Of a stretch of 64,000 bases of DNA, positions 439 to 32,633 are shown in pieces; positions within the stretch are counted from its first letter, which is position 1, and each line of letters starts with the position of its first letter. A program made the translations under genes and the position numbers. The notes beneath the pieces were generated by a model. The model saw only the letters and a list, made by a program, of their open reading frames with translations. It was not told the origin of the DNA and made no database searches. This stretch comes from an uncultured Pseudomonadota bacterium (GTDB taxonomy: Bacteria > Pseudomonadota > Gammaproteobacteria > Steroidobacterales > Steroidobacteraceae). The DNA is taken from positions 1 through 64,000 of the forward strand of contig CAIYLH010000047.1 in assembly GCA_903927005.1 (NCBI GenBank), written 5' to 3'.

Positions 439-1500
439 TCAGGGCACCAGGACGATCTTGCCTACGTGGCGCTTCGCCAGGAACGCTTCCTGCGCCGCGC
501 AGATTTCCGCGAGCGGGTAGCTGGCCGCGACCAGCGGCTGGATCTCGCTCCGTTCTATGTAGCCGATCAGGTGGCCGAATACGTCGCGGTCCTGAATCGT
601 GCCGCCGATCAGCTGCAGATCCTTCAGGTATAGCGTGCGCAGGTCCAGCGACACGATCGGGCCTGCGATCGCGCCGGAGACCGCGTAGCGGCCGCCACGC
701 TTGAGGACCTCAAGCAGCGCTGGGAACTGGCTGCCGCCGACGACGTCAATGACCACGTTGACCGACTCCGCTCCAAGTTCGGCGACCAGGTCTGCCGAGC
801 GGCCCAGCACGCGCGCGGCGCCGAGGCGGCGGACCTGCTCGGCCTTCGACGGATCGGCGAGGGCGATCACTGTTGCGCCGCGGCGTCGCGCGAGTTGCAC
901 GGCGGCTGAGCCGACGCCGCCCGAGGCGCCCGTGACCAGCACGATCTGGTCGCGGCCGACGTGCGACCGCTCGAGCAGATTCTCTGCCGTCGAGTAGGAG
1001 CAGGGAAAGGAGGCCAGCTCCACGTCCGTCAGGGCGCTGTCGACCCGGAACGCATTTTCAGCCGGGGCGCAGGTGTATTCGGCAAAGGCACCGTTGCACT
1101 CCGAGGCGAAGTAGCCGGCCGGCGCTCCTATCGGGCGCAGCACCGGATCCACCAGCACTCGCTCGCCTAGGCGCTGTGGCGGCACGCCGTGGCCGACCGC
1201 GACAATTCGGCCGCAGGCATCCGTACCCTGGATTCGCGGAAAACCCAGCGCCGTGCCGGTCCAGGCGCCGTCGTCGCTGGCACCGGCCGCCTCGGTGACC
1301 GCATCAGTGGCGCCTTCGACGGACTTCGAATACCAGCCGATGCGGGTGTTGATGTCGGTGTTGTTGACGGCAGCGGCGCCCACCCGGATCAGCACTTCGC
1401 CTGCCTGTGGCACCGGCACCGGGACATCATCCCGGAGCTGCAGTTGCTCGAAACCGCCGTGGCCGAGCAGCAAAACCGCCTTCATGCGTGCCGGAATCAT
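439..1500 (-). CDS. MDR-family (quinone oxidoreductase-like) NAD(P)-dependent oxidoreductase
   Basis: A medium-chain dehydrogenase/reductase of about 353 residues. The N-terminal GroES-like fold contains VNNTD, the quinone-reductase form of the substrate loop without the zinc-binding Cys seen in alcohol dehydrogenases. GTDACGRIVAVG follows. A Rossmann domain carries the nucleotide-binding motif VTGASGGVGSAAVQLA. The start at 1500 is chosen because GGAGAT lies 8 bases upstream; an in-frame ATG at 1536 lacks this and another at 1485 begins MKAVLL. It is divergent from the XRE-cupin regulator, which may control it. The substrate is unknown; reduction of an enal or quinone is the family norm. Confidence 0.85.
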   Translation of the reverse strand: MIPARMKAVLLLGHGGFEQLQLRDDVPVPVPQAGEVLIRVGAAAVNNTDINTRIGWYSKSVEGATDAVTEAAGASDDGAWTGTALGFPRIQGTDACGRIVAVGHGVPPQRLGERVLVDPVLRPIGAPAGYFASECNGAFAEYTCAPAENAFRVDSALTDVELASFPCSYSTAENLLERSHVGRDQIVLVTGASGGVGSAAVQLARRRGATVIALADPSKAEQVRRLGAARVLGRSADLVAELGAESVNVVIDVVGGSQFPALLEVLKRGGRYAVSGAIAGPIVSLDLRTLYLKDLQLIGGTIQDRDVFGHLIGYIERSEIQPLVAASYPLAEICAAQEAFLAKRHVGKIVLVP

Positions 1501-1575
1501 CGGAATATCTCCGTCCCAGGGCGAGTCTGGGCTCAAGTGTAGGTCAGCGGCAGGGCAAGGCGCCGGCCCCTGCCG

Positions 1576-1613
1576 TGAAATTTATCGGTAAATTTTCATT
1601 CCTGTGAATTTCA
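1576..1613. promoter_or_regulatory. Inverted-repeat operator candidate upstream of the XRE-cupin regulator
   Basis: Two overlapping AT-rich inverted repeats in GC-rich DNA. AAATTTA (1578-1584), TCGG, TAAATTT (1589-1595) form a perfect 7-bp palindrome with a 4-base centre. TGAAATT (1576-1582) also pairs with AATTTCA (1607-1613). They sit between the divergent MDR gene and regulator, where an autoregulatory site would be expected. Binding by the adjacent regulator is inference. Confidence 0.5.
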
Positions 1614-1668
1614 GTGGTGGGTCAGCTATATTTCCCCCGCCGCGTACCGCGGCAATGGGGGGGCTGAC

Positions 1669-2304
1669 ATGGTGGCCAGGGCAGCGGTTCGTAAACGGCG
1701 TATCGCCGTGCCGCGCACGCCGCCAGCGGCGCCACCGACCGCCGCCGAGAGCCCCTTGGGCGGTCAGATTCGGGACCTGCGCGCGGCGCGCGGCATGCGC
1801 CTTGCTGAACTTGCCGCCTCAATCGGCAAGTCGATTGGTTACGTCAGCCAGATCGAACGCGGCCGTTCCGAAATCTCGATCTCGACGCTCAAAGCCATCA
1901 GCGACGCCCTCGAGGTGCAAATCAGCTGGTTCTTTCAGGGCTACGATCCGAGTGAACCGGCCGAGCACGGCTACGTCGTGCGCCGCGAACATCGCCGTCG
2001 ACTCAACTTCCCCGGCACCGGCATCGGCGAAGAGCTGCTCTCGCCGACCCTGGCCGGTGAAGCTGAATTGATTCTCAGCACTTTCGCTCCCGGTGCCCGC
2101 AGTGGCGACGAGCAGGTCTCGCGGATGGCCGAACAGTCCGGCTACGTGATCAGCGGTGAGCTCGAGCTCCTGGTCGGCATGCGGCGCTTCGCGCTCAGGG
2201 CGGGCGATGCCTTTCGCATCGGCCGCGGCGAACCTTTCACGGCGCACAACCCCGGCGCGGACACCTCCGTGTCGCTGTGGGTCATCGCGCCGCCTCGTTA
2301 CTGA
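1669..2304 (+). CDS. XRE-family HTH regulator with C-terminal cupin domain
   Basis: A 211-residue regulator. A basic N-terminal extension is followed by an HTH_XRE domain at about residues 33-88 (IRDLRAARGMRLAELAASIG, then GYVSQIERGRSEISISTLKA) and a cupin_2 domain at about 130-208 (GYVISGELELLVG, AGDAFRIGRGEPFTAHNP). This PuuR-like architecture commonly controls amine, amino-acid or betaine catabolism, with the cupin sensing the ligand. The stop is 29 bases before the first FAD/GcvT dehydrogenase, so the two are probably co-transcribed. Palindromes just upstream (1576-1613) suggest autoregulation. The ligand cannot be read from the sequence. Confidence 0.88.
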   Translation: MVARAAVRKRRIAVPRTPPAAPPTAAESPLGGQIRDLRAARGMRLAELAASIGKSIGYVSQIERGRSEISISTLKAISDALEVQISWFFQGYDPSEPAEHGYVVRREHRRRLNFPGTGIGEELLSPTLAGEAELILSTFAPGARSGDEQVSRMAEQSGYVISGELELLVGMRRFALRAGDAFRIGRGEPFTAHNPGADTSVSLWVIAPPRY

Positions 2305-26793: not shown

Positions 26794-28365
26794 CTAGACG
26801 TTCGAATCCGGGAACGAGCTCTTGCGGCGGGTCATGTAGTCGAGCAGCGCCTCGTCGACCGCCGGATCGAGCGCCGGCGCCTCGTATTCGGCCAGCTGCC
26901 GCTTCCAGTAGGCGTTCGCGCGTACCGAGATGTCGTTTGCGCCCTCGGCTTCCCACTGCTCGAAGCTGTTGTTGTCCGTGAGCGGCGAGCGGTAGAACGC
27001 CGTTTCGAAGTTCGCCTGCGTGTGCGCGCAGCCGAGGAAGTGCTTGCCGGGGCCGACCTCGCGGATGGCGTCCATCGCCTGGCCGTTCTCGGTCATGTCC
27101 ACGCCCGCGAGGAAGGTCTGCATCATGCCGGCCTGGTCGGCGTCCATGACGAACTTCTCGTAGCCCATCGACAGGCCGCCCTCGAGCCAGCCGGCGGTGT
27201 GCAGCACGAAGTTGACTCCCGCGAGGCAGGTCGGCAGCAGTGTGTTCGCAGACTCATAGGCCGCCTGTGCATCCGGGATCTTCGAGCCGCACAGTCCACC
27301 GCCTGAGCGGAACGGCACGCCGAGTCGGCGGGCGAGGGCGGCCATGACGTACAGCACGAGCGCAGGCTCGGGTGTGCCGAACGTCGGCGCACCCGACTGC
27401 ATCGAGATCGACGAGGCAAAGCTGCCAAAGATGACCGGCGCGCCGGGGTTCACCAGCTGGGCGAACGCCATGCCAGCCAGTGATTCGGCGAGCGTCTGCG
27501 CGGCGGTTCCAGCCACGGTTACCGGCGACATGGCGCCAGCGAGGATGAACGGCGTGACGATGGTGGCTTGGTTCGCGCGCGCGTAGACCTTCAGCGCGCC
27601 GAGCATCGTCGCATCGAAAGTCATCGGTGAGTTGGCGTTGATCAGGCTGACCAGTACGGTCTTGTTGCGGCCGGTCACCGGGTCGATGAAGTCAGGCCCG
27701 AACAGGATCTTCGCCATCTCGACGGTGTCTTCGGCGCGCTCGGGCGCCGTGACGCTGCCCATGAACGCCTTGTCGCTGTACTTCATGTGGCTGTAAACCA
27801 TGTCGAAGTGCCGCTTGTTGACCGGCAGGTCGACGGGCTCGCAGATCGTGCCGCCTGAGTGATGCAGCGCAGGCGCCATGTAGGCCAGCTTGACGAAGTT
27901 TCTGAAATCCTCGATACGCGCGTAGCGGCGACCTTCGTCGAGGCTGCGGATGAACGGTGAGCCGTAAGCCGGCGCGAACACGGTGTTGCGGCCACCGATG
28001 ACGACGTTGCGGGCCGGGTTGCGGGCGTGCTGGACGAACTCGCGTGGCGCGCTCTTCTGCACCAGCGAGCGGCACAGGCCGCGCGGGAAGCGGACGCGTT
28101 CGCCATCAATCTCGGCGCCGGCCACCTTCCAGATTTCGAGGGATTCGGGGTCGTCGCGGAAGTCGATGCCGATCTCGGCAAGGATGGTGTCGGCGTTGGC
28201 CTCGATGGTCGCCAGTCCCTCCTCGCCGAGCACCTCGAAGTAAGGTATCGAGCGGGTGATGTACGGAATGGTGACTGCCGAGCGTGCCGCGCGTGCCGCG
28301 CGCTTCGCCTCACGGCCGCCGCCACGATTGCGTCGCGCCGACGCCTCTACCGGTTGCTCGTCCAT
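26794..28365 (-). CDS. Non-pyrrolysine MttB-family corrinoid-dependent methyltransferase (probable glycine betaine methyltransferase)
   Basis: A 523-residue TIM-barrel protein of the trimethylamine:corrinoid methyltransferase family. The frame has no internal amber codon, so it is of the MtgB type that lacks pyrrolysine; the one studied in Desulfitobacterium uses glycine betaine. SALVSLINANSPMTFDATML-like text in the core, LCGSKIPDAQAAYES and GWLEGGLSMGYEKFVMDADQ fit the family. The start at 28365 follows AGGAG; an ATG at 28389 lacks one. It lies next to the betaine-forming bet genes and near its presumed corrinoid partner, but on the other strand. Substrate assignment is inference from context. 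Confidence 0.85.
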   Translation of the reverse strand: MDEQPVEASARRNRGGGREAKRAARAARSAVTIPYITRSIPYFEVLGEEGLATIEANADTILAEIGIDFRDDPESLEIWKVAGAEIDGERVRFPRGLCRSLVQKSAPREFVQHARNPARNVVIGGRNTVFAPAYGSPFIRSLDEGRRYARIEDFRNFVKLAYMAPALHHSGGTICEPVDLPVNKRHFDMVYSHMKYSDKAFMGSVTAPERAEDTVEMAKILFGPDFIDPVTGRNKTVLVSLINANSPMTFDATMLGALKVYARANQATIVTPFILAGAMSPVTVAGTAAQTLAESLAGMAFAQLVNPGAPVIFGSFASSISMQSGAPTFGTPEPALVLYVMAALARRLGVPFRSGGGLCGSKIPDAQAAYESANTLLPTCLAGVNFVLHTAGWLEGGLSMGYEKFVMDADQAGMMQTFLAGVDMTENGQAMDAIREVGPGKHFLGCAHTQANFETAFYRSPLTDNNSFEQWEAEGANDISVRANAYWKRQLAEYEAPALDPAVDEALLDYMTRRKSSFPDSNV

Positions 28366-28861
28366 AGGTGCCCGATCTCCTGAATCCATGCGGCAGTATG
28401 GTCATGCAGCCTCGGCCGGTCTGATCAGTTTGCGGCATTGGCTTGCCTCGGGGCGCCTTAGGCCCGGCCCAAAGCCCGGATTACTTGCCGGCCCTGCGGA
28501 GGCCACCCAATCTATTGCCGCGTTACCCGGCGCCCGAAGTTCGCCCTGTCGGCGGCAGGGTCTTGAGGTCGCGTCTCGCGCCAGCGGGGCAGAGCGAGGT
28601 CTCTATAGCGCCTAGCGGCTCCCCGTGTGCTGCGAGGGCCCCAATCCGGCTCCCCCTTGACCCTGTTTATGCGTCGGCGGCATGATCTTCTCAAGGCGCG
28701 GCTGAATGGCCGTTCAACGGATCGGCCGTGAGCGCCGAACCGAATTCTGAACTATTTGATAATAAAGACAAATAATCGCAACCACTGACCTCGCAAAGGC
28801 CCCTAAAAAGGGCCATGCAGGCCAGCTTGCGCAGCCGCAGGCATCTACTGGGAGCACCACG
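28366..28861. promoter_or_regulatory. Divergent intergenic region upstream of the bet genes
   Basis: About 500 bases between the divergent mttB-like and betI-betB genes. No convincing small gene was seen. An AT-rich patch (28741-28776) in GC-rich surroundings contains TATTTG (28753-28758), ten bases, CAAATA (28769-28774), a 6-bp inverted repeat that could be a BetI-type operator. GGCCC (28798-28802) pairs with GGGCC (28810-28814) across a seven-base loop in the presumed leader. GGGAG lies 7 bases before the proposed CTG start. Confidence 0.45.
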
Positions 28862-30961
28862 CTGAACAATCAATCAAGCAAAGGCAGCCCTGCCGCCGAG
28901 TCCGACGCCGCAAAGCCGCCCGGCGGCGAACGGCTGGAGGAGGATCGGCGCGAACAACTGATCGAGGTCGCGATCGATTGCCTGGCTGAGCTTGGCTTTG
29001 TGGGCAGTACCCTGGCCCAGATCGCGGGTCGTGCCGGTGTTTCCGCGGGCCTGATTGGGCACTATTTTGGTGACAAAGATGGCCTGCTCGAGGCGGCCTT
29101 TCGCAGCCTCAGTCGCCGCGTTCACGCCAACGTCCGCGCCAAGCTGCGCCTTGCACGCACGCCCCGGGGCCGAGTGCAGGCGGTTATCGACGCAAACCTT
29201 GCGCCGGAAGAGTTCAGCCAGCGTACCGGTAATGCCTGGCTCGCGTTCTGGGGCCAGTTGCGCCACCTCCCGCCGCTGCTGCGCGTACAGAAGGCCTACC
29301 AGCGCCGGATGCTGTCGAACCTGCGGCATGCGCTGGGCCAGATGCTGTCGCCGGACGAGGCGCGCACGCTCGCGGCGATGATTGCCGCGATGATCGACGG
29401 GGTCTGGCTGCGTGCGGCGTTGTCGGACTGGGCCGAAGCGGATAGCGAGGCAGCCCGTGGGTTGCTGACGGCATTCGTCGAAGGCCGGTTGCGCGATCGG
29501 CCCTTGTCGCCGCTGCCGCCAGCCGCGGCTGCGGGCGTGAGCGTGGCTGCCGCGAGCGGGCACTTCCGTACGATCAATCCTGCCACCGGCGCGACGCTTG
29601 CCGAGTTGCGCATTGACGGTCCGGCGGAGGTCGACGCGGCCGTTGCGGCGGCGACTGAAGGTCAGAGGCGCTGGGCGGCCATGACGGGTGCTGAACGCGG
29701 CCGGGTGCTGCGTCGCACGGCCGATATCCTGCGCGCGCGTAATGCCGAGCTCGCCGCGCTTGAGACGCGCGACACGGGCAAGCCTATCCAGGAGACCAGC
29801 GCTGTCGATGTGCTCTCCGGGGCCGACTGTCTGGAGTATTACGCGGGCATCGCCGCAACGATTGCCGGCGAACACTTCGATCTCGGTCCCAGCGCTTTCG
29901 GTTATACGCGACGCGAGCCGCTCGGCGTCGTGGCGGGTATCGGGGCGTGGAACTACCCGATCCAGATCGCCTGCTGGAAGTCAGCGCCGGCGCTTGCCTG
30001 CGGTAACGCGATGATCTTCAAGCCCGCGGAGCTGACCCCGCTGACGGCGATCGAGCTTGGCAAGGCGTTTGATGCTGCCGGACTGCCGCCAGGCGTGTTC
30101 CAGGTGGTGCAGGGCAAGGCCGATACGGGCCGGCTACTGAGTCGGCATCCCGGTATTCGCAAGATCTCGTTGACTGGCGAAGTAGGCACCGGCAAGGCCG
30201 TCATGAGCGATGCTTCGAGCACGCTCAAGTACGTCACCCTTGAACTAGGCGGCAAGTCGCCGCTGATAGTGTTCGACGACGCCAAGCTCGACAATGCAGT
30301 GGGCGGCGCACTGCTCGCAAACTTCTATTCGGCTGGAGAAGTGTGCTCGAACGCCACCCGTGTGTTCGTTCATCGCAAGGTCAAGGCGGCGTTCCTCGAG
30401 AAGCTCAAGGCGCGTGTTGCGGCGATGCGGGTCGGAGATCCGATGGATCCGCAGACCCAGGTGGGCGCGCTGATCTCCGAAGCACACATGGAAAAGGTGC
30501 TCGGTTACATCGCGCGCGGCAAGGCGGAGGGCGCGAAGCTGCTGGTAGGTGGCTATCGCGTCACGACGGGTGACCTCGCCAACGGCTTCTTCGTCGCGCC
30601 AACGGTCTTTGATGGTTGTCACGACGACATGGCGATCGTGCGTGAGGAAATCTTCGGTCCGGTCATGAGCGTGCTTGAGTTTGATGACGAGGACGAGGTG
30701 GTCGCGCGCGCCAACGCGACCGAGTTTGGCTTGTCCGCCGGCGTATTCACCAACGATTTGACCCGTGGTCATCGCGTGATCGCCCGTCTCGAGGCGGGGA
30801 CGTGCTGGATCAATCACTACAACGTCACGCCGATCGAGCTGCCGTTTGGCGGCCACAAGCGCTCCGGGCTGGGCCGTGAAAACGGCCGTGCGGCGATTGA
30901 GCATTACACGCAACTCAAGAGTGTCTATGTCGCGATGGGTGACGTAGAGGCCCCTTACTGA
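28862..30961 (+). CDS. BetI-BetB fusion: TetR-type choline regulator joined to betaine aldehyde dehydrogenase
   Basis: One uninterrupted frame encodes a BetI-like TetR repressor (about residues 25-211; [47 protein letters not shown]), an Ala/Pro-rich linker, and a complete aldehyde dehydrogenase (about 234-699). The dehydrogenase has AWNYP (Asn364), LELGGKSP (Glu461) and [12 protein letters not shown] (catalytic Cys495), closest to BetB. The frame is open from 28766, yet the only ATG/GTG/TTG upstream of the HTH helix is GTG at 29000, which would cut off helix 1. CTG at 28862, seven bases after GGGAG, is the best start and gives 699 residues. betA follows ten bases later. A missed frameshift or sequencing join is possible but nothing in the frame suggests it. 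Confidence 0.85.
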
Positions 30962-30971
30962 AGGCGACGCC

Positions 30972-32633
30972 GTGGACAATTTGATTTACGACTACGTGAT
31001 CGTCGGCGCCGGCTCCGCTGGCTGCGTGCTCGCGGACCGGCTCAGCGCGGACGGTCGCAACACGGTCTTGTTGCTCGAGTACGGCGGCTCCGACCGCTCG
31101 ATCTTCATCCAGATGCCGTCGGCTCTTGCGATTCCGATGAATCGCGAGCGGTTCAACTGGCTCTACTACTCGGAGCCGGAGCCAGGCCTCGGTGGTCGCA
31201 GCATCCACACGGCGCGCGGCAAGGTGCTTGGCGGGTCCTCTTCGATCAATGGCCTGGTCTATATCCGTGGCAATGCGCTCGACTTCCAGCGTTGGGAGGC
31301 GGAAGGCGCGAGTGGCTGGAGTTACGCCGACGTGCTGCCGTACTTCAAGCGTGCCGAGAAGCGTGCCGAGGGCGGCACTGACTATCGTGGCGGCGACGGC
31401 CCGCTCGGGACCTGCTACGGCACCGTGAAGAATCCGTTGCACGCGGCGTGGCTTGGCGCGGCGAAGCAGGCCGGTTACCCGCTGACCGATGACGTCAACG
31501 GCTTCCAGCAGGAAGGTTTTGGCCGGATGGACATGACGGTCGATCGCGGCATCCGGGCGAGTGCTGCGAACGCCTACCTGCGGCCGGCAATGAAGCGCCA
31601 GAATCTGAAAGTCGAGACCCGCGCGCTTGCAAGCCAAGTGCTGTTCGAGGGGCGCCGCGCGGTCGGGGTGCGCTATACGCGGGGTGGCACTGAGCGGGTC
31701 GTGCGCGCCCGACACGAAGTTATTGTGTCGGCCGGCTCGATAGCGTCGCCGCAGCTGCTCAAGCTCTCTGGCGTAGGCCCAGGCGCGGAACTGCAGCAGC
31801 TTGGCATTCCCGTCGTGCACGATCTGTCGGGCGTTGGCGAGAACCTGCAGGACCATCTGGAGTTCTACTTCCAGGTGGCGTGCAAGGAGCCTGTCACGCT
31901 GTACTCGGTCATGAATCCGTTCGCCAAGCTCAAGCTGGGTGTCGAGTGGGTGCTGTTCAAGTCGGGCCTGGGTGCGACCAACCACTTCGAGACCTGCGGC
32001 TTCCTGCGCAGCCGCGCTGGCATCCCGTACCCGGACATCCAGTATCACTTCCTGCCGATGGCAGTCAGCTACGACGGCACGTCGCTTTGCAGCGAGCACG
32101 GCTTCCAGGCCCACGTCGGTCCGATGCGCTCGAAGAGTCGCGGCCACGTCAGGCTTGCGAGCCGCAACCCGCTCGACAAGCCGAAGATCCTGTTCAATTA
32201 CATGAGCCATCCGGACGACTGGGCCGAGATGCGAGCCTGCGTGCGGCTGACGCGCGAGATATTTTCACAGCAGAGCTTCGATCGTTATCGCGGCCGTGAA
32301 ATTCAGCCGGGTGATGCGGTGCAGACCGACGAACAGATCGACGAGTTCATCCGGCAGAAAGTGGAGACCGCCTATCACCCCTCGTGCTCCTGCAAGATGG
32401 GCGCGGCGGATGACCCGATGGCGGTCGTCGACCCGCAGACGCGGGTCTATGGGTTGGAGGGCTTGCGGGTGGTGGATTCGTCGATCATGCCGTCGATCAC
32501 CAACGGCAACCTCAACGCGCCAACGATCATGCTGGCCGAGAAGGCTGCTGATCACATCCTGGGCAAGGCGCTACTGCCCCGTTCGCAGGCGCCGTTCTAC
32601 GAGGCGCCCGACTGGCAGACTCGCCAGCGCTGA
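30972..32633 (+). CDS. betA: Choline dehydrogenase (GMC oxidoreductase)
   Basis: A 553-residue GMC flavoprotein. FAD motif YVIVGAGSAGCVLADRLS is at residues 6-23, GGSSSINGLVYIRGNALDFQ is the GMC signature 1, and SAGSIASPQLLKLSGVG is signature 2. The C-terminus carries the active-site region YHPSCSCKMG and NGNLNAPTIMLAEKAADHI. BetA oxidises choline to betaine aldehyde at the membrane, passing electrons to quinone. The start is a GTG ten bases after the betI-betB fusion stop, so the two steps to glycine betaine are co-transcribed. Other alcohols are possible for GMC enzymes, but the context favours choline. Confidence 0.9.
   Translation: MDNLIYDYVIVGAGSAGCVLADRLSADGRNTVLLLEYGGSDRSIFIQMPSALAIPMNRERFNWLYYSEPEPGLGGRSIHTARGKVLGGSSSINGLVYIRGNALDFQRWEAEGASGWSYADVLPYFKRAEKRAEGGTDYRGGDGPLGTCYGTVKNPLHAAWLGAAKQAGYPLTDDVNGFQQEGFGRMDMTVDRGIRASAANAYLRPAMKRQNLKVETRALASQVLFEGRRAVGVRYTRGGTERVVRARHEVIVSAGSIASPQLLKLSGVGPGAELQQLGIPVVHDLSGVGENLQDHLEFYFQVACKEPVTLYSVMNPFAKLKLGVEWVLFKSGLGATNHFETCGFLRSRAGIPYPDIQYHFLPMAVSYDGTSLCSEHGFQAHVGPMRSKSRGHVRLASRNPLDKPKILFNYMSHPDDWAEMRACVRLTREIFSQQSFDRYRGREIQPGDAVQTDEQIDEFIRQKVETAYHPSCSCKMGAADDPMAVVDPQTRVYGLEGLRVVDSSIMPSITNGNLNAPTIMLAEKAADHILGKALLPRSQAPFYEAPDWQTRQR

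Follow-up and report, generated by a model that had tools for sequence, protein, structure and literature searches.

This locus raises the question of how a repressor and a dehydrogenase of the choline operon, BetI and BetB, come to share one reading frame, whether that frame is real, and what the union would mean for the control of the operon. It lies in a stretch of 64,000 nt, hereafter the window (contig CAIYLH010000047.1 of GCA_903927005.1, from an uncultured Steroidobacteraceae), on which all coordinates are given. The first-pass annotation had described a single frame of about 700 codons in which BetI, a linker and BetB follow one another, and this description holds: the frame is open, without an internal stop, and contains the Pfam domains in that order. 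The features of the coding part, and the gene that follows, are these:

28862 to 30961, plus strand: fused gene, BetI repressor, linker and BetB dehydrogenase, 699 codons plus stop (open frame, Pfam, NCBIfam)
28958 to 29098, plus strand: TetR_N helix-turn-helix domain (Pfam PF00440, residues 33-79)
29162 to 29491, plus strand: TetR_C_6, the BetI-type ligand and dimer domain (Pfam PF13977, residues 101-210)
29501 to 29554, plus strand: Ala/Pro linker, predicted to be disordered (residues 214-231, pLDDT below 50)
29549 to 30925, plus strand: aldehyde dehydrogenase domain of BetB type (Pfam PF00171, Aldedh, residues 230-688; NF009725)
29951 to 29953, plus strand: codon of Asn364, invariant
30242 to 30244, plus strand: codon of Glu461, invariant
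30344 to 30346, plus strand: codon of Cys495, the catalytic thiol, invariant
30972 to 32633, plus strand: betA, choline dehydrogenase, the next gene of the operon (TIGR01810, 833.5 versus 732.1)

All three Pfam domains score above their gathering thresholds (42.9 versus 24 bits for TetR_N and 78.8 versus 27 for TetR_C_6). Compared with the NCBIfam models, the BetI half lies above the cut-off of NF001978 (182.9; cut-off 118) and 8 bits short of that of TIGR03384 (193.1; cut-off 201.3), while the BetB half lies above that of NF009725 (780; cut-off 593) and about 2 bits short of that of TIGR01804 (666.3, or 667.4 when scanned alone; cut-off 668.6). The three active-site residues named in the first-pass annotation, numbered from 28862, are present and do not vary when the window protein is aligned with 56 fused relatives. 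Like known BetB enzymes, solved relatives such as 2wme and 6wsa included, the dehydrogenase half has the catalytic Asn, Glu and Cys, and it has 127 columns in common with unfused BetB; unlike them, it bears an N-terminal repressor, and roughly the first 16 positions of the BetB profile are unmatched. The single-chain AlphaFold2 model of the fusion consists of two domains (mean pLDDT 81, pTM 0.63), with pLDDT values below 50 in residues 1-24 and 214-231 as well as in the dehydrogenase stretches 344-348, 647-650 and 658-692, and in this model the two halves look as if they were joined by a disordered tether. The gene betA begins 10 bp after the stop codon of the fused gene.

The fusion of BetI and BetB is a real and conserved arrangement. 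A scan of GTDB genomes gave 565 stretches encoding a relative, from which similarity to the whole protein was used to select the best 80, a choice that yields no rate; all 80 are in-frame fusions, joined without a stop codon in spite of linkers of differing length, so the joined frame is not a matter of chance. The domain pair that the first-pass annotation had proposed to look for in related genomes is thus found there, down to 65% identity among these 80 loci, which belong to gamma- and alphaproteobacteria and include metagenome-assembled genomes of several projects and, according to record titles, cultured Ancylobacter, Methylobrevis, Acidocella, Faunimonas and Azorhizobium. The window does come from a draft of 139 contigs, but the fusion recurs in genomes from many separate records, some of them of cultured strains, and on the Komagataeibacter saccharivorans plasmid NZ_CP023037.1 it is a single RefSeq CDS, named betB and followed by betA, so that the chance of an artefact of assembly or sequencing is negligible. 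Burkholderia plasmid records (H4 and H5) may be further cases, with one-piece matches across both halves at 53-56% identity.

Separate betI and betB genes are nevertheless the rule, as had been supposed from the start, and the fusion is a minority form. Genomes were sampled at several taxonomic levels and judged by the open frame of the BetI match (E at most 1e-30), a procedure that favours near relatives. On this basis, BetI was found in 14 of 196 genomes of the order (13 fused, all within the family of the window, and one split), in 9 of 369 genomes of the class (the only one fused by open frame being the window's own), in 69 of 398 genomes of the phylum (at least five fused) and in 29 of 385 alphaproteobacterial genomes (three fused, one of these to a degenerate enzyme). 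Thirteen close relatives with a near BetI, the window excluded, comprise ten fused loci, two split loci and one that is undecided, its stretch coming to an end. The linkers of 92 fused loci are rich in Ala, Pro and Gly and range from 6 to 54 residues (median 27), and some of them (e.g., L131 and L133) look as though they retain the old N-terminus of BetB. In this count, in the two-box counts and box distances, in the BetB tree and in the survey of upstream neighbours, 18 loci were dropped as repeats, together with loci lacking an adjacent betB; two of the dropped loci (L019 and L159, both from genome G011) have no twin among the kept rows, and they are fused, with boxes of 9 and 8 letters.

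The region before the gene has its own peculiarities, which are listed below with the candidate operators:

28657 to 28686, plus strand: weak promoter-like site with 9 of 12 letters; its end lies 15 bp upstream of O1
28702 to 28717: candidate box O1, CTGAATGGCCGTTCAA, 9 of 10 letters of TTGAA-N6-TTCAA; a box is similarly placed in many relatives
28850 to 28854, plus strand: GGGAG, likely ribosome-binding site by its sequence, 7 nt before the CTG
28862 to 28864, plus strand: CTG, likely start codon (start-codon survey and upstream sequences of relatives)
28862 to 28877: candidate box O2, CTGAACAATCAATCAA, 8 of 10 letters, with the start codon inside it

Between the upstream stop codon and the helix-turn-helix, the window gene has no in-frame ATG, GTG or TTG. 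The CTG at 28862 is a likely start position shared with the nearest relatives (loci L041-L046), and most of the nearest relatives listed have a GGAG-like motif where the window has GGGAG. In many wider gammaproteobacterial relatives a TTG stands at the position of this CTG as the likely start, and the box at the O2 position has 9 of 10 letters, the sequence there reading ATTGAAC; in the nearest relatives that position mostly reads CTGAA, so that the same T-to-C difference makes both the box and the start codon weaker. CTG is a poor start codon, and with this start and an O2 of 8 letters the expression of the window fusion may be low. A gene caller restricted to ATG, GTG and TTG places the start at GTG 29000, within the helix-turn-helix; if CTG is the start, as is likely, calling of this kind truncates the window's repressor inside its DNA-binding domain.

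It seems improbable that the frame yields two proteins after all, through an internal start or cleavage of the linker. An in-frame ATG, GTG or TTG does lie in or beside the linker in 63 of the 92 fused loci, and the split loci L022 and L023 show that a separate betB start can arise (GTG and TTG, respectively); however, a ribosome-binding core precedes such a start in only 7 of the 92, the TTG and GTG of the window's linker lack one, and no promoter-like site occurs in 29400-29650.

If the repressor had become a mere tail of the enzyme, it should drift faster than its partner. In 12 hand-picked fused pairs, some with a common member, dN/dS ranges from 0.027 to 0.143 for BetI and from 0.021 to 0.139 for BetB, and the two values are similar within most pairs, some dS values being near or above 1; in a thirteenth, re-split pair the BetI dS is saturated, and dN is 0.152 for BetI and 0.082 for BetB. 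Both halves are therefore under similar purifying selection, which argues that both are in use. At 17 BetI columns, among them those of His67-Tyr68-Phe69 and Lys72 in the DNA-binding part, and at the 127 BetB columns mentioned above, one and the same residue occurs in 95% or more of the 92 fused proteins and likewise of the 28 unfused ones.

With regard to its history, the fusion probably arose once and was long retained, as far as the trees of the two domains indicate. The BetI tree, built by a careful method from 92 fused and 28 unfused rows, needs two label changes, one at the boundary of a single fused group and one within it (L022 and L023), which are read as one gain and one re-splitting. 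The BetB tree, built by a quick method and containing two pairs of kept rows with identical BetB, needs three changes and has weak deep forks (78), which leaves a single origin less than firm. In this tree L022 and L023 are also nested within the fused group (SH-aLRT 96-98), and since the nesting appears for both domains, these two congeneric loci (genomes G014 and G006) are placed by phylogeny as re-split from a fusion. In both, betI ends in a stop codon and betB has its own start after AAGG, the GTG or TTG mentioned above.

Is the repressor half still a repressor of its own gene? TTGAA-N6-TTCAA with at least 9 of 10 letters lies upstream of 75 of 79 fused loci, compared with a mean of 0.76 and a maximum of three loci in 100 shuffles, although the 79 loci are related and thus represent fewer independent cases, with the box occurring in both classes at varying places; loci with short upstream sequence (L069 and L085) were left out of this count and of the two-box counts. 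A similar palindrome, ATTGACG-CGTCAAT, is the betI box footprinted in Ruegeria pomeroyi (PMC12442346), and many of the unfused betI genes in the set have ATTGAACGTTCAAT or near forms upstream. Given how regularly such betI-like palindromes precede the fused genes, autorepression by the BetI half has probably been retained. By itself the motif lacks specificity, since the whole genome of the window has 48 places at 9 of 10 letters, compared with 21 for the reversed pattern. A genome-wide regulon was considered and, on the exact matches to the box, rejected: the genome has two exact matches, for which no link to choline was seen, one downstream of apparent electron-transfer flavoprotein genes and the other inside a TPR-sulfotransferase-like frame (genes identified by eye). 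The Komagataeibacter plasmid locus (L188) has three upstream boxes at 9 of 10 letters.

On this evidence it is likely that one protein unites the repressor of the bet operon, responsive to choline, with the operon's betaine aldehyde dehydrogenase, and that it regulates its own synthesis. The effector of the characterised, unfused BetI is choline, according to the account in PMC12442346. When choline is absent, the BetI half, as a dimer, would occupy boxes at its own start and further upstream, keeping betIB and betA off; when it is present, the BetI half would release the DNA, BetA would convert choline into betaine aldehyde, and the BetB half would convert betaine aldehyde into glycine betaine. 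Each enzyme chain would bear a repressor, fixing the ratio of the two at 1:1, and through this lock the level of the enzyme would feed back on its own synthesis. We infer the binding, the choline response, the enzyme activity, the dimeric state and the 1:1 feedback; binding, release and activity are taken from knowledge of the families.

Many fused loci have more than one box. In a strict count, which takes matches of 9 of 10 letters with N6 or N2 spacing over 450 bp, two or more boxes are found at 51 of 90 fused loci, a single one at 38 and none at one, in contrast to the 28 unfused loci, of which one has two boxes and 27 have one; among further loci, all three fused ones have two or more, and the nine unfused ones comprise one with two, six with one and two with none. 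The window and its nearest relatives fall into the one-box class, O2 having 8 letters. These differences could be explained by looping: the dehydrogenase, as a dimer of dimers, would bear two BetI dimers and loop O1 and O2 in the manner of LacI, so that the enzyme half would also be an oligomerisation module and the enzyme tetramer the scaffold of its own repressor. Tetrameric aldehyde dehydrogenases are described as typically dimers of dimers (PMC8160307), which counts for this proposal, as does the state of the re-split loci L022 and L023: each has a single box and none at the start codon, no match in the 120 bp preceding the BetI domain exceeding 6 of 10 letters (in L023 a match of 8 letters is also found far upstream). 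However, the excess of two-box loci among the fused ones is confounded by neighbouring genes and kinship.

In gamma loci (here and in the counts by upstream gene, the label gamma is our own, taken from record titles and trees) the distances between the two best boxes (at least 8 letters) fall into groups of 137-142, 148-152 and 158-162 bp, with centres near 139, 150 and 161 bp, and a Rayleigh test at 10.5 bp, in which kinship is ignored, gives R=0.56 and p of about 4e-6 for the 37 distances above 100 bp, or R=0.52 and p of about 7e-6 for all 41, as a loop would favour. Against this, the three groups are largely three clades of the BetB tree, and when the tree is read for changes of distance, off-phase ones (133-134, 145 and 41 bp) are found as well, with about four of seven in phase, which is not significant; two loci with an APC neighbour have distances of 41 and 66 bp, and 21 other, mostly alphaproteobacterial, loci are not phased (p=0.37). 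Helical phasing was accordingly dropped as a claim, the distances following clades, and is retained only as a hint.

An explanation that needs no loop is that the two boxes serve two divergent promoters, that of betIB and that of an upstream gene for choline or betaine, the fusion being a neutral tether without regulatory effect. In the mostly alphaproteobacterial loci tested, two boxes occur in 17 of 27 with a divergent ProX-ProW-like transporter and in none of 12 without it, and the linker, disordered in the model and variable among loci, also fits a neutral tether. The gamma loci behave differently: two boxes are found in 11 with the transporter, in eight with other reference genes and in four matching none of the four reference genes, so that in this group they do not hinge on the transporter, the 11 loci that have it standing beside 12 tested ones that do not, a point in favour of looping (9 gamma and 7 other loci fall outside this count, having too little upstream sequence or not having been surveyed). 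Distances of 137-142 bp occur with the transporter, an FAD oxidoreductase or an APC permease upstream; apart from those assigned by a family search, upstream genes were named by eye. L052, whose upstream gene is codirectional with betIB, nevertheless has two boxes, of 9 and 8 letters, at a distance of 158 bp. The retention of the fusion down to 65% identity and its strong clustering on the trees also speak against neutrality. Altogether, the reading with two divergent promoters is a serious possibility, if a somewhat less than even one, and it gains on looping because in the alphaproteobacteria the two boxes track the transporter gene so closely.

A further test of these proposals is offered by L189 (genome G1191), in which BetI and a degenerate dehydrogenase form one frame of 498 residues (607-2103, minus strand). 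The dehydrogenase part matches positions 26-195 of 461 of the Pfam model with 67 bits; in the alignment with the window protein Asn364 is replaced by His, Cys495 by Ala and Glu461 by Asp, and the enzyme lacks its C-terminal part. Directly downstream lies betA, and upstream there are two full boxes. By inference from this shortening, the enzyme part of L189 probably does not assemble into the usual tetramer, and the locus thus speaks against looping as the reason for its two boxes. Looping is rated as unlikely, the more so on account of this locus, which has two boxes in spite of its cut-short enzyme, and of the alphaproteobacterial two-box loci that follow the transporter gene. A match was found in two of six genomes of the genus; the congeneric L215 is a fusion with all three residues whose frame is broken near the end of the enzyme, and L189 may be a single case of decay in progress. 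As judged from its sequence, L189 shows that the repressor and its predicted boxes can outlast catalysis.

The same locus bears on the idea, raised in the first-pass annotation, that attachment to the enzyme removing its signal could let a repressor sense flux. The join to BetB stands; the removal of the signal does not follow, given that the known effector, choline, is used by BetA, and BetB could play that part only with betaine aldehyde as the signal. As a mechanism, the dehydrogenase half would change shape with betaine aldehyde or NAD and pass this on to the repressor. A precedent exists in PutA, in which, as described in PMC5293562, proline and the flavin state switch the protein from DNA to the membrane. 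However, the disordered linker of the model, the identity of the BetI effector (PMC12442346) and L189, which has kept BetI and two full boxes without the catalytic Cys and Asn, make such a sensor very improbable.

Returning to the self-regulating dehydrogenase, the comparison with known systems helps to place it. Its repressor half resembles BetI in its TetR_N and TetR_C_6 domains, its conserved DNA-binding part, its upstream betI-type box and its first place in the bet operon; it differs in being joined in frame to BetB, and the fused loci differ in often having two boxes, of which one covers the start codon in many gamma loci. Few enzymes act as repressors of their own genes, and among these PutA serves as a main model. 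In the account of PMC5293562, type C PutA represses putA and the transporter gene putP, and it resembles the fusion in combining an N-terminal DNA-binding domain with an enzyme containing an aldehyde dehydrogenase domain; it is an autogenous repressor of a catabolic operon, a role that the architecture and boxes of the fusion would fit. Unlike the window protein, it has a ribbon-helix-helix instead of a TetR domain, a flavin dehydrogenase domain and another substrate. The Pfam result for the window protein contains no proline dehydrogenase domain, and its DNA-binding domain is TetR_N and not a ribbon-helix-helix; because these two defining domains are absent, PutA is an analogue of the fusion and not a member of the same family. 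BdhE, an ALDH-ADH fusion near betaine aldehyde dehydrogenase, is alike in having a fused BetB-like ALDH and is tetrameric, whereas its partner is an alcohol dehydrogenase and not a regulator (as described in PMC12454647). Compared with pairings of an enzyme and a DNA-binding domain in which the enzyme is degenerate, the window's enzyme half keeps its catalytic residues, and L189 may be the closer parallel to them.

Searches of open-licence PMC papers on this fusion and on enzyme-regulator fusions in general found no fusion of BetI with BetB, and PMC7824335 was set aside, since the fusions it speaks of are of methyltransferases and not of BetI. The families and the PutA-type principle are known, and the combination of BetI and BetB seems to be new. 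It looks like a second case of a self-repressing enzyme, made from different parts and found in two bacterial classes, and its relatives provide natural controls (re-split, one-box and two-box loci and one with a degenerate enzyme half), so that the effect of joining a regulator to its enzyme can be studied. It also exposes an annotation gap, as the one fused protein that was looked up is called merely betB in RefSeq.

A last feature of the region is the gene on the other side of the candidate operators:

26794 to 28389, minus strand: divergent MttB-family methyltransferase gene (TIGR02369, 261 bits, below the cut-off of 525, hence assigned at family level only)

This frame is open without read-through beside the bet operon, and the methyltransferase is possibly a later step in the use of betaine. 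Frames related to it also lie near betIB in L041, L042 and L052.
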